A stretch of 64,000 bases of DNA from NCBI RefSeq assembly GCF_900880625.1, contig NZ_CAAHFB010000006.1:1-64000 (forward strand), read 5' to 3'. Both the position numbers and the translations under genes were made by a program. The notes below the pieces were generated by a model, which did no database searches, was not told the DNA's origin, and saw only the letters and a program-made list of their open reading frames with translations. Numbering within the stretch: position 1 is the first letter of the stretch; every line of letters starts with the position of its first letter. The stretch comes from Halorhabdus rudnickae (lineage in GTDB: Archaea; Halobacteriota; Halobacteria; Halobacteriales; Haloarculaceae). Shown piece after piece: positions 21,922 through 30,964 of this stretch.

Positions 21922-22194
21922 TCATTCGCCGCCTGGCTCGTGCGTGTCGAACCGGGTGGCGACGTAGGAGACGGCGACCAATAGCACGCCAATGGCAAGA
22001 CCGACCGTCACCATCCCGTAGACGGCCATGCCAAGTACCGACGGCGGTAACGGAAAAACGCCGAACAGGACCGGGTCGACGACATCGGGCCGTGTCGCAC
22101 CGAGGATCGCACCCATCAGTCCCGCGATTGTGACCACGACGAGGTAGACGATCAAGACGACCCGTCGCCCACGGATGGCGGTGGTTACTGACAT
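21922..22194 (-). CDS. Small cox-cluster membrane protein
   Basis: 90 residues with two membrane helices (about residues 12-30 and 48-75) joined by GATRPDVVDPVLFGVFPLPP. I recognise it as the kind of small haloarchaeal protein found next to cytochrome oxidase genes, without a known function. It ends convergently near the acs gene and is divergent from the 28-residue membrane peptide, with about 60 bases between their starts. Confidence 0.75.
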   Translation of the reverse strand: MSVTTAIRGRRVVLIVYLVVVTIAGLMGAILGATRPDVVDPVLFGVFPLPPSVLGMAVYGMVTVGLAIGVLLVAVSYVATRFDTHEPGGE

Positions 22195-22251
22195 GACTGC
22201 TCTTCGTGCCGGAGCCGATTAGGCTTTTCATCCCGCACCCGAAGTGCACGT

Positions 22252-22338
22252 ATGGAAGAGAAAGAACTCCTGCTCGCGGCGCTGGTTGCGATCGTGCTGA
22301 TGATGGGGATCGCCGCGTTCGTGCTCGTCCTCGGCTGA
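22252..22338 (+). CDS. 28-residue single-helix membrane peptide
   Basis: A short frame starts with ATG at 22252, reads MEEKELLLAALVAIVLMMG and continues IAAFVLVLG to TGA at 22336-22338. It has a charged start and one ~20-residue hydrophobic helix. A TATA-like ttaggctttt (22219-22228) is centred 28 bases before the ATG, the leaderless spacing used by most genes here. The frame is fully hydrophobic after residue 5, as expected for a small oxidase-associated subunit. It sits convergent to oxidase subunit I. The function is inferred from position only. Confidence 0.65.
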   Translation: MEEKELLLAALVAIVLMMGIAAFVLVLG

Positions 22339-22407
22339 CAAACGGGCGAAAACAGAACTGTCTCGGCTGACAAGCGAGTGAAGGTAGAGCTATCGGACGA
22401 TCGAAGG

Positions 22408-24174
22408 CTACTGGTCCGTTTCCGTCTCGCCGCCGTCGGTCATCGCCTCTTCCTCGCCGCCGTCGGGCAGCGCGAGGCGGTCGGCGTGCCAGCCGAACTC
22501 CCGGGTGAACAGGCCGTCGTCTTTGAGATCCCAAGGGTCCTCGTCGGTGACTGCTGGCGCTTCCAGCCAGGACTGGACGACGTTCCAGACGAAGATCAGC
22601 TGGCCGATCAGAAGAATGACGGCCCCGACCGTTGCCGCCTGGTGGAGCAGTGTGATCGCGTCGAGCGGTGCGACCGCCGGATCGAACTCGTAGGCCGCGT
22701 ACCGCCGGGGCATCTCCAGGTACCCCAGCAGCAACATGGCGAAGAAGGTCACGTTGGTCCCGATCATCGACAGCCAGAAGTGCCACTTCGCCAGCGTGCG
22801 CTGGTACATCTTCCCGGTGAAGATGGGGAACCAGTAGTAAATGCCCGCGAACACTGCGAAGGCGATCGCGCCCATGATGATGTAGTGGAAGTGCCCGACG
22901 ACGTAGTACGTATCAGTCAACACCAGGTCGATCGGGATCGCTGCCAGGAAGACCCCGGTCACGCCGCCGATGATGAAGTTCGAGACGAAGCCGATACAGA
23001 ACAGCATCGGTGCCGCGAGCCTGATCCGACCGTTCCACATCGTCGTGATCCAGTTGAACGTCTTCACTGCACTGGGCACTGCTATCGCCAAGGAGACGGC
23101 CATGAACGAGGCTCGCAAGCGCGGGTCGATCCCGGTCGCGAACATGTGGTGGGCCCAGACGCCAAAGGAGAGGACGCCGATGGCCAGCGTCGAGTAGACG
23201 ACGAACTTGAAGCCGAAGAGCTTCCGGCCGGCAAAGCGAGGGAGGATGTAACTGACCAGCCCCATCGGCGGAAGCACGAGGATGTACACCTCCGGATGGC
23301 CGAAGAACCAAAAGAGGTTCTGCCAGAGGATCGGACCGCCGCCCTCACCGATCGCGTAGAACATCGTCCCGAGATTCCGATCCAGCAACAGCATGACGAT
23401 CGCACTACCCAACAGCGGGAACGCGAAGAGGATGATCCCCGACTGGGTGAGCATCGTCCAGGAGAAGATGTCCAGGTTCGCCCAGTTGACACCCTCACCG
23501 CGTTCGGTGAATATTGTCACGATGAAGTTGATCGCCCCCATCGTCGCCGAGATGCCCGTGAGGTGCAACCCTAGCAACATGAGATCGGTGCCGAAGTGGG
23601 CCTGTTCGACCGACAGGGGGGTGTACATCGTCCAGCTGGTCTGTGACGGGGCGATCCCCGGAATCAGGAACCCAGCCCAGATGAGGAGCGCGCCGAAGGG
23701 CAACAGCCAGAAAGCGATGGCGTTGATTCGTGGAAACGCCATGTCGTCGGCACCGATCAACAGCGGGATGAAGTAGTTACCGAACGCCGCGAGGATCGGC
23801 GTCCCGAACAGAAACAGCATGGTGATCCCGTGACTCGTCAGCAAGGCGTTGTAGAACTGTGGGCTGACCACGTCCGATGCGGGAGTCAGTAATTCCAACC
23901 GCATGATGAGCACCATGATGCCACCGATGGCCAACGAGACGAGTGCGAAGACGCCGTACAGAATACCGATGTCCTTGTGATCGACGGTCGTGAGCCACCT
24001 GAATACGCCCCCGGGCTTTTCGCGATGGCCGTACCCGCTCTCCTCGCCGACGGTGACGGCGCCGCCCGCCATGGCCGTGTAGCGCCGCCAGTCCTCGAGA
24101 CGCGTGAGGAGTGTGGCCACCCCGACGAGGACCAGCCCCATCAACACCGTCAGTGCGAGCTGCTGTCCTGCCAT
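22408..24174 (-). CDS. coxA: Heme-copper oxidase subunit I (A-type cytochrome oxidase)
   Basis: 588 residues with about 13 membrane helices. Ligands and channel residues are present: the low-spin heme His in LLTSHGITMLFLF, the D-channel segment FGNYFIPLLIGADDMAFPR with its Asp, the Cu-B/heme-a3 segment WFFGHPEVYILVLPPMG with the His-Tyr pair and channel Glu, the AHHMF copper ligands, and VGHFHYIIMG. It reduces oxygen and pumps protons in the cytoplasmic membrane. A TATA-like ccttttagta lies about 30 bases upstream. No subunit II gene is adjacent; only small membrane proteins are, so the other subunits lie outside or elsewhere. Confidence 0.95.
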   Translation of the reverse strand: MAGQQLALTVLMGLVLVGVATLLTRLEDWRRYTAMAGGAVTVGEESGYGHREKPGGVFRWLTTVDHKDIGILYGVFALVSLAIGGIMVLIMRLELLTPASDVVSPQFYNALLTSHGITMLFLFGTPILAAFGNYFIPLLIGADDMAFPRINAIAFWLLPFGALLIWAGFLIPGIAPSQTSWTMYTPLSVEQAHFGTDLMLLGLHLTGISATMGAINFIVTIFTERGEGVNWANLDIFSWTMLTQSGIILFAFPLLGSAIVMLLLDRNLGTMFYAIGEGGGPILWQNLFWFFGHPEVYILVLPPMGLVSYILPRFAGRKLFGFKFVVYSTLAIGVLSFGVWAHHMFATGIDPRLRASFMAVSLAIAVPSAVKTFNWITTMWNGRIRLAAPMLFCIGFVSNFIIGGVTGVFLAAIPIDLVLTDTYYVVGHFHYIIMGAIAFAVFAGIYYWFPIFTGKMYQRTLAKWHFWLSMIGTNVTFFAMLLLGYLEMPRRYAAYEFDPAVAPLDAITLLHQAATVGAVILLIGQLIFVWNVVQSWLEAPAVTDEDPWDLKDDGLFTREFGWHADRLALPDGGEEEAMTDGGETETDQ

Positions 24175-24241
24175 GGCCCATTCTCCGGGAGGTTCCTACT
24201 AAAAGGGTGCGTTGTCGGCACCATTCTCTCATGGTGTTCAT

Positions 24242-24257
24242 CCCCCGATACTGGGGG
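24242..24257. other. Short hairpin between cox-cluster genes
   Basis: ccccc-gatact-ggggg forms a 5-base-pair GC stem with a 6-base loop. It lies between the end of the upstream minus-strand gene (24303) and the oxidase promoter. On the minus strand there is no T-run after it, so it is not a clear terminator. It may help to end the upstream transcript or be incidental. Confidence 0.3.
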
Positions 24258-24302
24258 TTATTTAGGATCTGTCGACAGGAAAACGAAAGACGTTCGAAAC
24301 AA

Positions 24303-24575
24303 TCAGTCTCGCGTTTCGGGGAGCACGCCCGGCGGTTCCTCGGGTTCGCCACCGCGCTCGGCGTTCGCGATTGCCCGCCCGGCGTAATACGAAAGGATCG
24401 TGAGCAGGACGATCATCGACCCGACGATCGCCAGTTGCAGGCCCGAAGCCACGGGATCCCAGCCAAACGGACTGACGAGCACGAACGCGGCGAAAAAGAA
24501 CACGAGGATGCCCAGGGGGATGACGTTGACCAGCAGATCGAGCAAGGTCTCGTGATCGAGCGGACCGATCTCCAT
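24303..24575 (-). CDS. Small cox-cluster membrane protein (DUF6684-like)
   Basis: 90 residues. It starts MEIGPLDHETLLDLLVNVIP and has two helices (about residues 17-35 and 45-68) and a charged tail (NAERGGEPEEPPG). The arrangement next to oxidase subunit I matches a small haloarchaeal family I recall as DUF6684, from memory. The ATG at 24575 is chosen; the in-frame start at 24668 adds a Ser/Arg-rich stretch that would overlap the 82-base palindrome. Confidence 0.75.
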   Translation of the reverse strand: MEIGPLDHETLLDLLVNVIPLGILVFFFAAFVLVSPFGWDPVASGLQLAIVGSMIVLLTILSYYAGRAIANAERGGEPEEPPGVLPETRD

Positions 24576-24666
24576 AGGCGAGGGTTCGCCACAAGCCGTA
24601 AATAGACTGTTGGAAGCGGAAAACAGGCGGGTGTCCGGGGACGACGATCGTTCGGAAAGGCGACTC

Positions 24667-24748
24667 ATAGTGATTACTGTAGCGATTTACCGCGACGACT
24701 GCACAACTGCGTGCGGTCGATGTGGAACAGACCGACAGTAATCACTAT
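24667..24748. repeat. 82-base imperfect palindrome (nested co-centred inverted repeats)
   Basis: Perfect 14-base outer arms atagtgattactgt (24667-24680) and acagtaatcactat (24735-24748) enclose inner arms cgactgcac (24696-24704) and gtgcggtcg (24711-24719, one mismatch) around a six-base loop aactgc. Outer and inner arms share one centre (24707.5), so the whole segment can fold as one hairpin with an internal bulge. The right arm ends in the stop codon of the upstream minus-strand gene. It may be a transcript end/processing hairpin or a miniature mobile element. Confidence 0.75.
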
Positions 24749-25134
24749 CACTCCAGCAGCAGTCCGGGGAGTCCGACTGCGAACAGGATCACACCGGCAC
24801 CGACGACGGCGAGGCCACGGCCGACGATCCCGCCGGGATCAGCCACGACCGCGAGGATGTCCAACGTCGTCGGGTCGATCTGTGTCGCGACGATGGCGAG
24901 GCCAAGGACGGACAAGACAGCACCGAGGCCGGCGAGTGGACGCCAAACGTCGGTGGCGTAGTTCGATTCCCGCAGAATCCCCGCCACGCTGCCTGCAAGC
25001 AACAACAGTCCGCCGACGGCGACGGGATAGAGCCCGACGAAGATCCCAAGTTCCGAGAGGGCAAACCCCAGTGCGACGAAGACGGGCCACGGGCTGGCGC
25101 GGCGGTACCCGCCGGCGTCGACTTGCTCGCTCAT
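24748..25134 (-). CDS. Cox-cluster membrane protein
   Basis: 128 residues with about four helices (FVALGFALSELGIFVGLYPVA; VGGLLLLAGSVAGIL; LAGLGAVLSVLGLAIVA; GRGLAVVGAGVILFAVGLPG) after a short charged N-terminus MSEQVDAGGYRRASPW. It resembles the protein commonly called 'cox cluster protein' in haloarchaeal annotations. The ATG at 25134 is preferred to the upstream in-frame start at 25221. Function unknown; its position suggests a role in oxidase assembly (inference). Confidence 0.78.
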   Translation of the reverse strand: MSEQVDAGGYRRASPWPVFVALGFALSELGIFVGLYPVAVGGLLLLAGSVAGILRESNYATDVWRPLAGLGAVLSVLGLAIVATQIDPTTLDILAVVADPGGIVGRGLAVVGAGVILFAVGLPGLLLE

Positions 25135-25245
25135 GGGGGCAATTAGGGCTGGAGTCCGGAAAGGTCCATCGGAGCCGGCGGTCCGTCCGTCACTTGTAGG
25201 GCAGCGTTTGAGTGATTTCAAGCGGTAGCCGTCGGTTGCGGGCGC

Positions 25246-25280: not shown

Positions 25281-27890
25281 ATGACTACACGCGCTATCGA
25301 GCGGGTCGACCAGTGGGAGACTCGCTCGTTCGGCGGCGGCTATCGAGGCCTGCAGGAACTCGCAAGGCAGGACTTCTCCGGGGTCGTCCGTTCGCCGGCC
25401 GGGACGCTCTGTATGCTCAACGGCACTGTCGTCGGGATCATCGGTGGGGCTATCGAGGACTTCGAGGCCGCCGATGGGACGGCCTACGAGGCCCCCACGC
25501 CGGCGCTCCCGTTGTTGATCGTCATGCAGGACCGCGGCGACGAGGTCCGGGCGAAGTACTACACGGAGGAGACGCCGCTCTCGAAGGTCGATACGACGCT
25601 CTCCGACGGCGGCTTTACCGGCTACATCGAACTCTCGGAAAACGTTCTCAGCGGGGACTACTACGTCGTCTATCACGGCGGGCGCTCGATGGGCGTCGCC
25701 TTCGTCGGCAACAGCGGGCAGTTGTTGAGTGAGGACGAGGCCTTCCAGCGGGCCGACGGCGAGGTCGGGATCTACAAGGTCCGGGCCGTCGATGTCGATC
25801 CGATCGAGATTCCTGCGTCCGGAAGCTCGACCGCGGCGTCGGACGACGTGGACCAGGACGCCACGACGGTCGCTGGGGGAGCGCCCGGATCCACCGAGGA
25901 TTCGGCCGGCGACGAACCCGCCGAGAACGAGTCCGACGAACGGGCGACGCCCCCCGAGGAGCCAACCGAAGGGACAATGTCGGGTGACGAAGAACCGGGC
26001 ACGGGAGAGCCGAGTACTGGAAAGCCGGGTACGGGAGAACCAAGTGCCGAAGAACCGAGTGCCGGGAAATCGGGAACCGGAGAACCGAATCCAGAAGAGA
26101 CGGACACGGCTGAGGCGACCGCGTCCGACGAAGCCGAGAGTACGGCCAGTGAGACGGAAACCGCTGGAACAGTCGACGACGCCGAGACAAGCCCGGAGAC
26201 AACGACAGAGGCAGAGACAACAGACGACGGGCCGAGGGAGGCTGCCGAGCGGACGACCACGCCGGCCAGCGGCGGATCGAGTGAGCAAGGAGCCACAACC
26301 CAAGAACGCGAAACGAACGACACAGCCCAGCGGGATCGGTCGGCCACTGCCGAGACGACGACCACCGGACAGGAGACCGAGTCCGCGGCGAGGACGACCG
26401 AGCACGAGCGACGACCGACGGCAGACACTACCGCCGAAACCGAGGAACAAACACGTGAGAAGACCCAGTCTGGAACGCCATCCACCGGGAAAGAGCAAGT
26501 CGAATCTGCGCGTTCGGAGCGAGAAACGGCGAGAAGCCGTTCCCGGGAGCCTTCAGGGAGTGATCGGTCAACAGGAGGGAGTTCGGCACACGATTCCTCG
26601 GCAGGCAGTGCGGATGATCTCGAAACCCGGACGATCCCCTCGCTCGACCCGGACCGGACGAGGAGCGAGACCACGGACGACGCCACGACGGAGTCGACGA
26701 TGGGCGAAACCCATCCGACGGCCCGTCCGAAACCGGAACCGAGTGACGAAACGGAGCCCCACAGCGCCGTCGCCGACACGTCGGCCGAGACAGCTCAAGA
26801 GGAGACAACGTCCGAAACGACGGCCGAGACGCCGACAGAATCCGAGGAGACGGAGAGAGACGCATCGACCGAGACGGTCGATGACGAGAGCGCCAACGCC
26901 GGAACCGACGACCGCGTTCGGGATGTAGAGGAGACGATCGCCGAACGAGAGGGACGGATCGAGGAACTCGAGGCACAACTCGAAAGTGCCCGTGAGGAGC
27001 GCGATGAGATCGCCAACGAACGGGACGAACTCCTGGACGAGTGCGACAAACTGCAGACGGAACTCGAGCAGGCACGCGAGGAGTTGGCCGACCTCAGAGA
27101 GCAACGCGACTCCCTACAGACCCGGCTCGAAGAAGTCGATGCGCCGGATACCACAGCCGAAACGCGACTCAGCCGGGCGGAAGCGATGGATGGGACGGAT
27201 CTGTTCGTTCGATACGACTCGAAAGGAGAGCCGACACTGAAGACGGTCCACGACAGCGGAGCGAGCCGCTCGGACATCAACGAGAACCTCAACGTCGAGT
27301 ACCACACCCAGTTCGAAACCGACGGCGCGGTCGTCGCCGATCAGCCCTTCGATGCGTTCCTTCGAGAGACGATCGAGTTCCGATTCGTGTCCTGGCTCCT
27401 TCGCCAGTTGGCCTTCGATATCCGTGACACCGGTCACCAGAACGGCCTGTCGGATCTCTACGACGCTTTGCCGCTGGTCGACCGAGCGGAACTCAACGGG
27501 GAGGCCAGCGTCGAATACACCGAGGACGGCCAGACGAAGCGATCACACGAAACCTTCGACGTCGTATTGCGCGACCGCATGGGCAATCCGCTGGTCGTCG
27601 CGAACTTCAACGACACTCGCGAGGCGGCCACCGAAGACGACATGCGTTCGCTCGTCACGACGGCCACCCGAGTCAGCGAATCCAACGAATCGCTGGCCGG
27701 GGCGATGTACGTCACCGCGAGCTTCTTTGAACCGGAAGCACTGAAAACTGCGGCCGAGTCGACCGGCGGGGGCCTGCTCAGTCGAGACAAGCGCGAGAGC
27801 TTCGTGAAGGTCTCCCGCAAACAGGGGTATCACCTATGTCTCGTCGAGGCGCGGGACGAACAATTCCACATGCCTGTCCCGGAACTGTAG
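25281..27890 (+). CDS. Large three-part haloarchaeal protein (DUF7527-like)
   Basis: 869 residues. Residues 1-185 are beta-rich with two related units (FSGVVRSPAGTLCMLNGTVVGI and FTGYIELSENVLSGDYYVVYH) that resemble DUF4388/PATAN-type modules. Residues ~186-550 are a Glu/Thr/Ser-rich linker with a five-residue tandem repeat. Residues ~551-628 form a coiled coil (EEREGRIEEL-type heptads). The C-terminal ~240 residues include FDVVLRDRMGNPLVVANFND, then a helix, then AGAMYVTASFFEPEAL, an order like a PD-(D/E)xK nuclease fold but with Asn instead of Glu and Lys. I recall DUF7527 for this family; function unknown. No membrane segment. Confidence 0.85.
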   Translation: MTTRAIERVDQWETRSFGGGYRGLQELARQDFSGVVRSPAGTLCMLNGTVVGIIGGAIEDFEAADGTAYEAPTPALPLLIVMQDRGDEVRAKYYTEETPLSKVDTTLSDGGFTGYIELSENVLSGDYYVVYHGGRSMGVAFVGNSGQLLSEDEAFQRADGEVGIYKVRAVDVDPIEIPASGSSTAASDDVDQDATTVAGGAPGSTEDSAGDEPAENESDERATPPEEPTEGTMSGDEEPGTGEPSTGKPGTGEPSAEEPSAGKSGTGEPNPEETDTAEATASDEAESTASETETAGTVDDAETSPETTTEAETTDDGPREAAERTTTPASGGSSEQGATTQERETNDTAQRDRSATAETTTTGQETESAARTTEHERRPTADTTAETEEQTREKTQSGTPSTGKEQVESARSERETARSRSREPSGSDRSTGGSSAHDSSAGSADDLETRTIPSLDPDRTRSETTDDATTESTMGETHPTARPKPEPSDETEPHSAVADTSAETAQEETTSETTAETPTESEETERDASTETVDDESANAGTDDRVRDVEETIAEREGRIEELEAQLESAREERDEIANERDELLDECDKLQTELEQAREELADLREQRDSLQTRLEEVDAPDTTAETRLSRAEAMDGTDLFVRYDSKGEPTLKTVHDSGASRSDINENLNVEYHTQFETDGAVVADQPFDAFLRETIEFRFVSWLLRQLAFDIRDTGHQNGLSDLYDALPLVDRAELNGEASVEYTEDGQTKRSHETFDVVLRDRMGNPLVVANFNDTREAATEDDMRSLVTTATRVSESNESLAGAMYVTASFFEPEALKTAAESTGGGLLSRDKRESFVKVSRKQGYHLCLVEARDEQFHMPVPEL
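25989..26108 (+). repeat. Eight imperfect 15-base tandem units (five-residue repeat)
   Basis: Within the linker of the large protein the translation reads EEPGT GEPST GKPGT GEPSA EEPSA GKSGT GEPNP EETDT, eight five-codon units. Sequence differences between units are mostly synonymous or single-residue, so it grew by slippage or unequal exchange and then drifted. Unit number is likely to differ between strains (inference). Confidence 0.85.
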
Positions 27891-27912: not shown

Positions 27913-28218
27913 TCAGTTCTCGACTTCCGCCGCGTCGTCGATCTTCATCCCTTCGAGTTTCTCGATCGTGTGATCGACCTTCTCGTCGAGATCGGCGACG
28001 AACTCGTCTGTCTCCTCGGTTGTAATCGCACCCTGGCTTGAAGGCTCTATCAGGTTCTCTTCTTCCAGTACCCGCAGAGAGTATCGAACCTTGTGATGGG
28101 GGTACCCCGTCTCGTTCGACATCTTTACGATCCCGATCGGTTCGTTCTCGATGACCATCCGCAGAACCTGCAGATGTCGCTCCAGCATGTCCACCTCTTT
28201 CTCTAGCCTATCTATCAT
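27913..28218 (-). CDS. Small winged-helix transcription regulator
   Basis: 101 residues. An N-terminal helix (MIDRLEKEVDMLERHLQVLR) is followed by a winged-helix segment (NEPIGIVKMSNETGYPHHKVRYSLRVLEEENLIEPSSQGAITTE) and a C-terminal helix that may dimerise. The ATG at 28218 has CCTTTAAAAC (minus strand; 28244-28253) 30 bases upstream. The longer in-frame start at 28542 runs through purA and is rejected. Between box and start lie the palindromes cacgtg (28221-28226) and gttaac overlapping it, possible operator sequence. Confidence 0.85.
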   Translation of the reverse strand: MIDRLEKEVDMLERHLQVLRMVIENEPIGIVKMSNETGYPHHKVRYSLRVLEEENLIEPSSQGAITTEETDEFVADLDEKVDHTIEKLEGMKIDDAAEVEN

Positions 28219-28410
28219 GGCACGTGTTAACTTGTGTTCGGAGGTTTTAAAGGTTGTTGTCCATCCGCGAAAATTAGCTGTTGAACCTACATTGACTGAC
28301 GATATAACGCTTGTGATACAGTAACAACCAGAGATCCGATCCTCGGCACAGTGACGATCGAGACGCTGGGACCGTAATCTGTATACCGAGGTGGAAAAAA
28401 CGGGCGAGTG

Positions 28411-29828: not shown

Positions 29829-30062
29829 TCACGCTTGTGCCATCGTCTTGAAGAGGCCGTCCTGGATTTCCAGCACGGGCACGTCGAAGCGATCACCGAA
29901 GGCGGCGACACGGTTGGCGTGACGGTCAGTTGCGGCGACCAACTGGCAGTCGTCGCGGCGCTCGTAGGCCTCGGCGTGACGGTATGCCATCGCGAAGCTC
30001 TCGACGCTGGGATCGGATGGATTAGGGCCGGTGCCGACGACGGCGACATCGTACGGACTCAT
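29829..30062 (-). pseudogene. N-terminal remnant of a Gfo/Idh/MocA-type oxidoreductase
   Basis: 77 residues starting MSPYDVAVVGTGPNPSDPSVES, with the Rossmann G-x-G and the segment AMAYRHAEAYERRDDCQLVAATDRHANRVAAFGDRF, the NAD(P)-binding half-motif of Gfo/Idh/MocA dehydrogenases. These normally exceed 330 residues; here the similarity ends at DVPVLEI and a stop follows. A TATA-like CATTATGCC (minus strand) remains about 27 bases upstream. Decay after a deletion is the simplest reading. Confidence 0.65.
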
Positions 30063-30178
30063 AGATACTCCCGGAGAGGTGCCTGGCATAATGAGCTACC
30101 GGTCAGCCCGGTCGCGAGAGACAGACACGACTGAGAGCGAGCGGCACGCTTTTGGCGCGCGGGAGACAGGCTTGGTGT

Positions 30179-30406: not shown

Positions 30407-30964
30407 GTGCACAGTCCGCTCCCCATTCACGTCAACCGTGAGGAACTGCATGATCTGGCGGTTCCCGAGTCCTACGAGACGAGGGGGAGCTTCGAGATCC
30501 GGCTGATAAACCACGGCGAGTCCTCACACGTCCACCTCCACCTCGACGATCCGCTGTCCTCGGTCGCCGCGATCGAGGCGACCAACCACTACGTCGACGG
30601 CGAGAGCGAACGCCGCGTGACCGTCGAGGTCCGAAACGGCGCGTCGATCCGCGGAAAACTCAAGGTCGCCGTCGGGTACGGGGCGACGACACGGTACGTC
30701 GACGTGGATATCAGCAAGCCGGTTGAGGCGGCCCAGTCAGTCGAGGTCGACGAGTCGCTATCCAAGCCCCAGCCGAAAGAACCGGAAGAACCCGGTGGGC
30801 CCTTCCAGGGGAGTCCGGTACTGCCAGTACTGTCACTCGCAGCGCTGGCGCTGTTGCTCGCTGTCGGCGCAGCCCTCGTATTCCGACAGTTCGTCGTCGC
30901 GCTCGGGGCCTCGGTCGTGTTTCTCGGCGTTACCTTCGCGCTGTATGCCCTCGTCGGCGATTGA
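30407..30964 (+). CDS. Membrane-anchored protein with beta-rich domain, unknown function
   Basis: 185 residues. The first ~110 look like an all-beta domain (SFEIRLINHGESSHVHLHLDD; TVEVRNGASIRGKLKVAVGYG) similar in pattern to an Ig/CARDB-type fold. A Pro/Glu linker and two C-terminal helices (VLPVLSLAALALLLAVGAAL and VVALGASVVFLGVTFALYAL) follow. The start is GTG with a TATA-like box 27 bases upstream, so a leaderless GTG start is likely. I associate it with a haloarchaeal DUF7524-type family; no function is known. Confidence 0.8.
   Translation: MHSPLPIHVNREELHDLAVPESYETRGSFEIRLINHGESSHVHLHLDDPLSSVAAIEATNHYVDGESERRVTVEVRNGASIRGKLKVAVGYGATTRYVDVDISKPVEAAQSVEVDESLSKPQPKEPEEPGGPFQGSPVLPVLSLAALALLLAVGAALVFRQFVVALGASVVFLGVTFALYALVGD

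Follow-up and report, generated by a model that had tools for sequence, protein, structure and literature searches.

The window, meaning the whole stretch of 64,000 nucleotides from Halorhabdus rudnickae that was analysed, carries on the forward strand a gene of the DUF7527 family (25281–27890), opening with ATG at 25281 and closing with a stop codon that ends at 27890. The product has 869 residues, and its position and length are exactly those given in the initial annotation. The reading frame also has a longer alternative start (GTG at 25212), and the start at 25281 is supported by Met1, which is nearly invariant (at least 90% conserved) across 73 aligned heads. The three-part build described from the letters alone is likewise found: an N-terminal head, a low-complexity linker leading into a coiled coil, and a C-terminal tail. 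An NCBIfam scan of the 869-residue protein gave no family over the cut-off. The closest named relative is that of Halorhabdus amylolytica, with 88% tail identity.

The tail (residues 630–869; 27168–27887, +) is a full-length member of the curated Pfam family DUF7527 (PF24371, E 7.5e-108), scoring 360 bits against a cut-off of 27 and covering the full profile (1–237 of 237). This family occurs in single copy in 277 of the 292 Halobacteria genomes sampled, so the tail string noted initially is far beyond chance. The match lies over the cut-off in 276 of them, and the 277th genome (G216) carries a remnant of 57 residues. Among 14 control genomes DUF7527 was found in Haloferax volcanii only. From a scan of named genomes, which gave 256 relatives, we kept the best 80, a set biased to close kin (tail identity 53–88%). 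Head and tail lie in one open frame in 75 of these best 80 of 256, five of the 75 having a partial head; in the remaining five the frame is broken or a contig ends. Pfam gives the family no function; what the present analysis adds is its fold and dead site, together with the head and the linker peptide.

An AlphaFold2 model of residues 535–869, built from 81 sequences (pLDDT 86.7, pTM 0.70), gives the tail a small N-terminal lobe, helices, a run of strands and then helix, strand, helix, strand. The restriction-endonuclease-like core lies at about residues 694–861 (27360–27863, +), as delimited by the VIA row for AF1548 (model residues 160–327). That row has the best VIA Z, 7.3 (rmsd 3.8, 110 residues aligned), a value which by the tool's own statement is typical even without a clear match; the best Foldseek E-value is 0.010, none reaching 0.001. 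The top PDB rows include Cas4 SSO0001, YaeQ, NucS/EndoMS, AF1548, Card1/Can2/Cdn1, NucC and restriction enzymes. Going by titles, we take as restriction-endonuclease-like 49 of the 50 rows listed by VIA and 34 of the 50 listed by Foldseek, two counts which are not independent, as VIA re-aligns the picks of Foldseek. The single VIA row that we did not place is 2ph7, and the other 16 Foldseek rows are by title Hsp70, Argonaute systems, RNase H and others. RPB5-type chains (1i6h_E, 5xog_E, 8q3b_E) are also present in the VIA list.

At the sequence level, Mrr_cat (PF04471) is matched by four of 27 tails (best E 0.0061), and a tail profile run on 246 genomes weakly matches two proteins of other archaea, an Mrr_cat protein (L175) and a NucS_C protein (L176), with E-values of 0.045 and 0.081 per genome. 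A tail profile against the PDB gave two matches, at chance level. Every single match is weak, and the fold class is accepted on the agreement of several such lines (fold lists, Mrr_cat, in-register alignments), no row being strong alone. The tail is likely to have a restriction-endonuclease-like fold with a PD-(D/E)xK core. The initial annotation had proposed such a fold, to be checked by structure prediction with fold search and by a profile search; both point its way, restriction-endonuclease-like matches dominating the fold lists and the profile reaching nuclease-like proteins. With PD-(D/E)xK nucleases (Mrr_cat, NucS_C PF01939, AF1548) the tail shares fold, strand order, Asp position and register, but it has N/D-x-N for E/Q-x-K and an extra N-terminal lobe (about residues 630–690). 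Inactive restriction-like domains such as NA-iREase1 (PF22722) and the N-terminal domain of RPB5 have this fold and are used without cutting, as appears to be the case here; unlike them, the tail is fused to a PATAN-like head and a coiled coil. PF22722 itself was unmatched by every tail scanned against Pfam.

The string FDVV-L-RDR-MGNPLVVANFND occupies residues 759–778. In alignments to the Mrr-type and NucS-type proteins L175 and L176, D760 (27558–27560, +) falls on the core-strand Asp and is the equivalent of the catalytic Asp, and N775-F-N777 (27603–27611, +) falls on Q-x-K or E-x-K. Residues were counted in 130 distinct tails from 140 examined. L031 and L061 were left out of the tail table. 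Asp is kept at 760 in 128 tails. Position 775 has N in 74, D in 41, E in eight, A in five, and I and Q in one each; position 777 has N in 114, D in eight, H in three, S and T in two each, V in one and Lys in none. The signature of active PD-(D/E)xK enzymes, D...(E/D/Q)-x-K, is not found in these tails, and the tail is probably nuclease-inactive. The loss of E-x-K read from the single sequence holds across the family; its replacement by N-x-N holds for most tails only, as 775 is often Asp and 777 not always Asn.

Other tail residues are near-fixed among the 130: W705, G849 and H851 in all, R735, G768 and E856 in 128, R764 in 127, R780 in 125 and K847 in 123, with R846 also among those kept in 125–130. 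Since E-x-K is gone from every tail, they indicate strong constraint without a standard active site. Beside the dead site, the NucS-type protein (CKDRKDGSLVVIELKRDR) has K, R and R where the tail has R764, R766 and R780. Columns with K or R in at least 85% of sequences number 11 in the tail (27 rows) as against one in the head (73 rows), and the 11 basic columns are exceeded by 14 conserved acidic ones in the tail. Haloarchaeal proteins in general are acidic. It is plausible that the tail may bind DNA.

A search of 199 genomes from another class of the phylum gave distant homologues (L173, L174, L180, L181) in four, all belonging to a single family, f34. Each is about 500 residues long and has the head almost next to the tail, with neither linker nor coiled coil between them. 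L173 is matched by the tail at E 1.5e-19 and by the head at E 1.2e-10, in a small set of frames around tail-chosen loci. The head profile matches three of the four, recognised only in loci fetched for their tails, and at genome scale it found nothing in 163 non-Halobacteria genomes. In a profile alignment all four keep the Asp and have Arg at the place of 775 and A, T, T or H at that of 777; with E-x-K absent from all four, the non-catalytic state is probably old. The pairing of head and dead tail probably predates the long linker, or else the f34 lineage lost it. The positions of R764 and R766 are E and G in f34; this speaks against these residues having bound DNA from early on, and any such binding would be a haloarchaeal feature. 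Dimerisation through the coiled coil would similarly not be common to the f34 versions, as they have none.

The head was modelled confidently (pLDDT 90.6, pTM 0.87) as two units. Unit 1 (residues 21–73; 25341–25499, +), which is PATAN-like, is a helix and then three strands; unit 2 (residues 98–172; 25572–25796, +), with the core FTGYIELSENVLSGDYYVVYHGG, is a helix, three strands, a helix and a strand. Helix-strand-strand-strand occurs twice, at 21–54 and 100–142, each time followed by a helix and a strand, an order that we take to fit PATAN. Foldseek against the PDB gave no match for the head at E 0.001 or better, and no PATAN structure was noticed in the lists. Acetolactate decarboxylase, with the best VIA Z (6.1 over 81 residues), was judged to have a common arrangement and was rejected as a relative. 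The structure prediction and fold search of the head that had been proposed initially gave, in this way, a confident two-unit model and no clear PDB relative.

A Pfam scan of 73 haloarchaeal heads matched neither PATAN/DUF4388 nor DUF2226, and the head encoded in the window, taken alone, matched no Pfam family. Among the four f34 homologues, DUF4388 (PF14332) was found in one at E 3.2e-4, with 21.2 bits against a cut-off of 25, and DUF2226 (PF09987) in two at a best E of 0.012, with 15.6 bits against a cut-off of 22. Haloarchaeal and f34 heads together align with the DUF2226 profile at E 3.5e-4 over 73 columns (hhalign probability 37%), and haloarchaeal heads alone at E 0.0011, hhalign E-values here being those of single pairwise comparisons, of which eight were made besides controls. 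The score of the combined match is 33.9; the best of 20 column shuffles reached 18.2 and the reversed profile 14.7. Within the f34 heads, unit 1 and unit 2 align with one another at E 8e-5 (probability 61%, 34% identity); haloarchaeal sequences alone gave no signal of the repeat (26 columns, probability 1%). Comparisons of f34 unit 1 with DUF2226 (E 0.056, not significant) and of the heads with two DUF4388 sequences (E 0.026, not convincing) were set aside; between DUF2226 and the two DUF4388 sequences E was 0.5, and no PATAN likeness of DUF2226 was seen. DUF4388 was found in one of 11 bacterial plasmids searched for it, and no Halobacteria genome matched DUF2226 or DUF4388 in two samples of 196 genomes each.

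The head appears to share with DUF2226 and DUF4388/PATAN a unit of helix, three strands, helix and strand, and its units have remote sequence matches to them; it differs in staying below both cut-offs and in being fused to a nuclease-like tail. It is PATAN-like, through sub-threshold remote matches, and not a proven member. The reading of the head as two similar PATAN/DUF4388 beta units fits the modelled anatomy, and is weakly backed by sequence. A separate 331-residue archaeal frame, L182 (G605), found with the head part of profile A4 (E 4.6e-4), has by eye two PATAN-like units and no DUF7527 tail.

Between head and coiled coil lies a low-complexity linker (residues 181–535; 25821–26885, +), probably disordered by its composition; the f34 homologues lack it. 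Over residues 186–535, 61% of positions are T, E, A or S. It is fast-changing except for one conserved island around I-P-[SA]-L-D-P, in the window LETRTIPSLDPDRT (residues 447–460; 26619–26660, +), which holds three of the five I/L/M/F/W/Y residues of the linker. The island follows the pattern (WR or L)-E-x-x-[STA]-[IVL]-P-[SA]-[LIV]-[DNS]-P, in strict forms and eight variants. Among 71 full-length proteins (70 of the 80 loci and the window; ten were left out as frame-broken, at a contig end or without a full head match) the strict motif occurs in 63 and the wider in all 71. Shuffling each linker gives expectations of 0.01 and 0.04, descriptive figures that overstate significance, since the motif was first noticed by eye and was counted on the same related sequences. 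In a second, more diverse set the wider motif is found in 50 of 58 proteins (49 by script and L054 by eye). It is missing in L059 and L060, both of genus g12, and in six others. L059 and L060 are short members of the DUF7527 family in which a coiled-coil-like stretch is present, the linker nearly absent and the peptide missing; they are natural short-tether forms.

The strict pattern searched at the DNA level occurs in 12 of 59 genomes at 13 places, 10 of them inside the DUF7527 gene by position, the other three being G050:C1:972267, G058:C2:192876 and G663:C14:23728; the counts are a lower bound, as Thr was required before I/V and the commoner Ser forms were missed. The reversed pattern gave two places. 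In the genome of the window the strict pattern occurs in the DUF7527 gene only. Within these 59 genomes, a signal common to other proteins was rejected as a reading of the peptide. Conserved islands in disorder are usually docking sites, and the 447–460 peptide is a putative docking motif. The coiled coil (residues 539–619; 26895–27137, +) is one continuous helix in the AlphaFold2 model. When the profile of coiled coil plus tail was compared with the PDB, the 60 rows listed were coiled-coil matches, judged by titles and ranges. Upstream of the tail, a rough count of heptads (136 of 138) was made without a control, and we give it no weight.

The gene order around DUF7527 is kept, with a convergent gene for a helix-turn-helix (HTH) protein and then purA in the direction of DUF7527. 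In the best 80 of 256 relatives the HTH gene is present at all 80 loci, 3–259 bases from the tail match, and purA is matched at 78, in the expected place and direction at 76; the HTH gene is also found at 58 of 60 more diverse loci. HTH homologues are retained in all 16 checked Halobacteria genomes that have no DUF7527 or only a remnant, the one in G021 having an internal stop. A functional tie between DUF7527 and this neighbour is therefore judged unlikely. Ten HTH loci from genomes without intact DUF7527 still have purA beside HTH in seven cases; nine of the ten have neither DUF7527 tail nor head, and one has a remnant. The DUF7527 gene is lost in several lineages, among them g34, part of g39, G014 and G129, while HTH (and purA in seven of ten) persists, and is dispensable in some lineages. 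Genus g34 lacks the gene in all eight genomes sampled. One g34 locus matches a Halococcus dombrowskii plasmid with 90% identity across 70% of 3.3 kb, and two further loci gave no comparable support, so that g34 is possibly Halococcus, judging from one locus of the three tried.

We read the DUF7527 protein as a cytosolic, dimeric, non-catalytic adaptor or scaffold, a reading to which we give about even chances. It is based on the observed anatomy, the fold class that the tail is likely to have, the family-wide loss of E-x-K, the conserved peptide, the near-universality of the gene and the linkerless distant versions. The coiled coil would pair two chains, and the paired dead tails would form a recognition module whose target is most likely nucleic acid or, failing that, a protein. 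The disordered tether of about 350 residues would let two PATAN-like heads and the docking peptide hold other proteins. Instead of being dead, the tail might be a nuclease with a rearranged site, in which D760 and acidic or amide residues bind metal and K847, H851 or E856 replaces the Lys. The conservation of these four residues and the D or E found at 775 in 49 of 130 tails would suit this, and some restriction enzymes vary the lysine of E-x-K. It is nevertheless improbable: no tail has Lys at 777, six have Ala or Ile at 775, f34 has Arg there and A, T or H at the Lys place, and active-site residues of enzymes are seldom so variable. Still less credible is a defence sensor, in which the dead domain would detect foreign DNA or RNA in the manner of the NACHT-associated inactive REases. 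NA-iREase1 is indeed matched (E 1.5e-7) by the Mrr-type protein to which the tail was aligned, but the gene is near-universal, single-copy and in a conserved place beside HTH and purA, and the protein has no effector domain. All eight PADLOC matches of the full protein fall in 499–634, that is in the coiled coil and its edges, and the tail alone gave none.

In another reading the tail is a protein-binding fold only, as in RPB5, and the whole protein a scaffold for signalling, motility or cell shape that has no contact with DNA, which we consider possible though doubtful. It is favoured by the RPB5-type chains in the fold list and by the absence of the gene from g34, Halococcus being a non-motile walled coccus. 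However, the name Halococcus comes from one locus of three, the other lineages with gene loss have no known link to shape or motility, and conserved basic columns lie close to the dead site. For cyanobacteria, PATAN response regulators are reported as probable effectors on the type IV pilus machinery, PixE for example through binding of PilB1 (PMC7690835); this also favours a protein-only role, and one option for the partner is therefore a motility or surface component. The adaptor reading could be extended to a class-wide tether, in which the dead tails would hold the chromosome uncut and the nucleoid would be coupled to a machine of surface, motility, cell shape or replication that is gripped by the heads and the IPSLDP peptide; this extension we regard as unlikely.

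Dead restriction-like domains and PATAN domains are each known, and their fusion, with a conserved linker peptide and in nearly all Halobacteria, appears undescribed in the literature searched. A full-text search gave no paper naming DUF7527, and searches on PATAN with Haloferax, PATAN domain or DUF4388 gave no title on the DUF7527 protein; 127 Halobacteria-specific proteins are listed in PMC1852104. New here are the linkerless head and tail of f34, the conserved linker island, and the loss of the gene with HTH (purA in seven of ten loci) retained. Read in this way, a blank annotation becomes a testable adaptor, for which the 447–460 peptide can serve as bait for partners. A knock-out should be viable, since several lineages have lost the gene.

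A search of the literature on the neighbours of Haloferax purA gave nothing usable. The small HTH protein (27913–28257, −) has 79–96% identity across the 80 loci (best 80 of 256) and a weak CggR_N likeness in Pfam, and extra copies of its gene are present in several genomes. Upstream of DUF7527 lies a block of DUF7520, COX1, DUF6684 and DUF7541 (21922–25221, −), found at 26–27 of the same best 80 loci, whose DUFs may be small oxidase-associated membrane proteins. Between purA and DUF7524 an 86-residue fragment (29829–30089, −), present at one of the best 80 loci of 256, is similar to the beginning of a Gfo/Idh/MocA oxidoreductase (E 0.0043) and may be a decayed gene. The DUF7524 protein itself (30407–30964, +), downstream of purA, is found at 46 of these 80 loci within the fetched flank.
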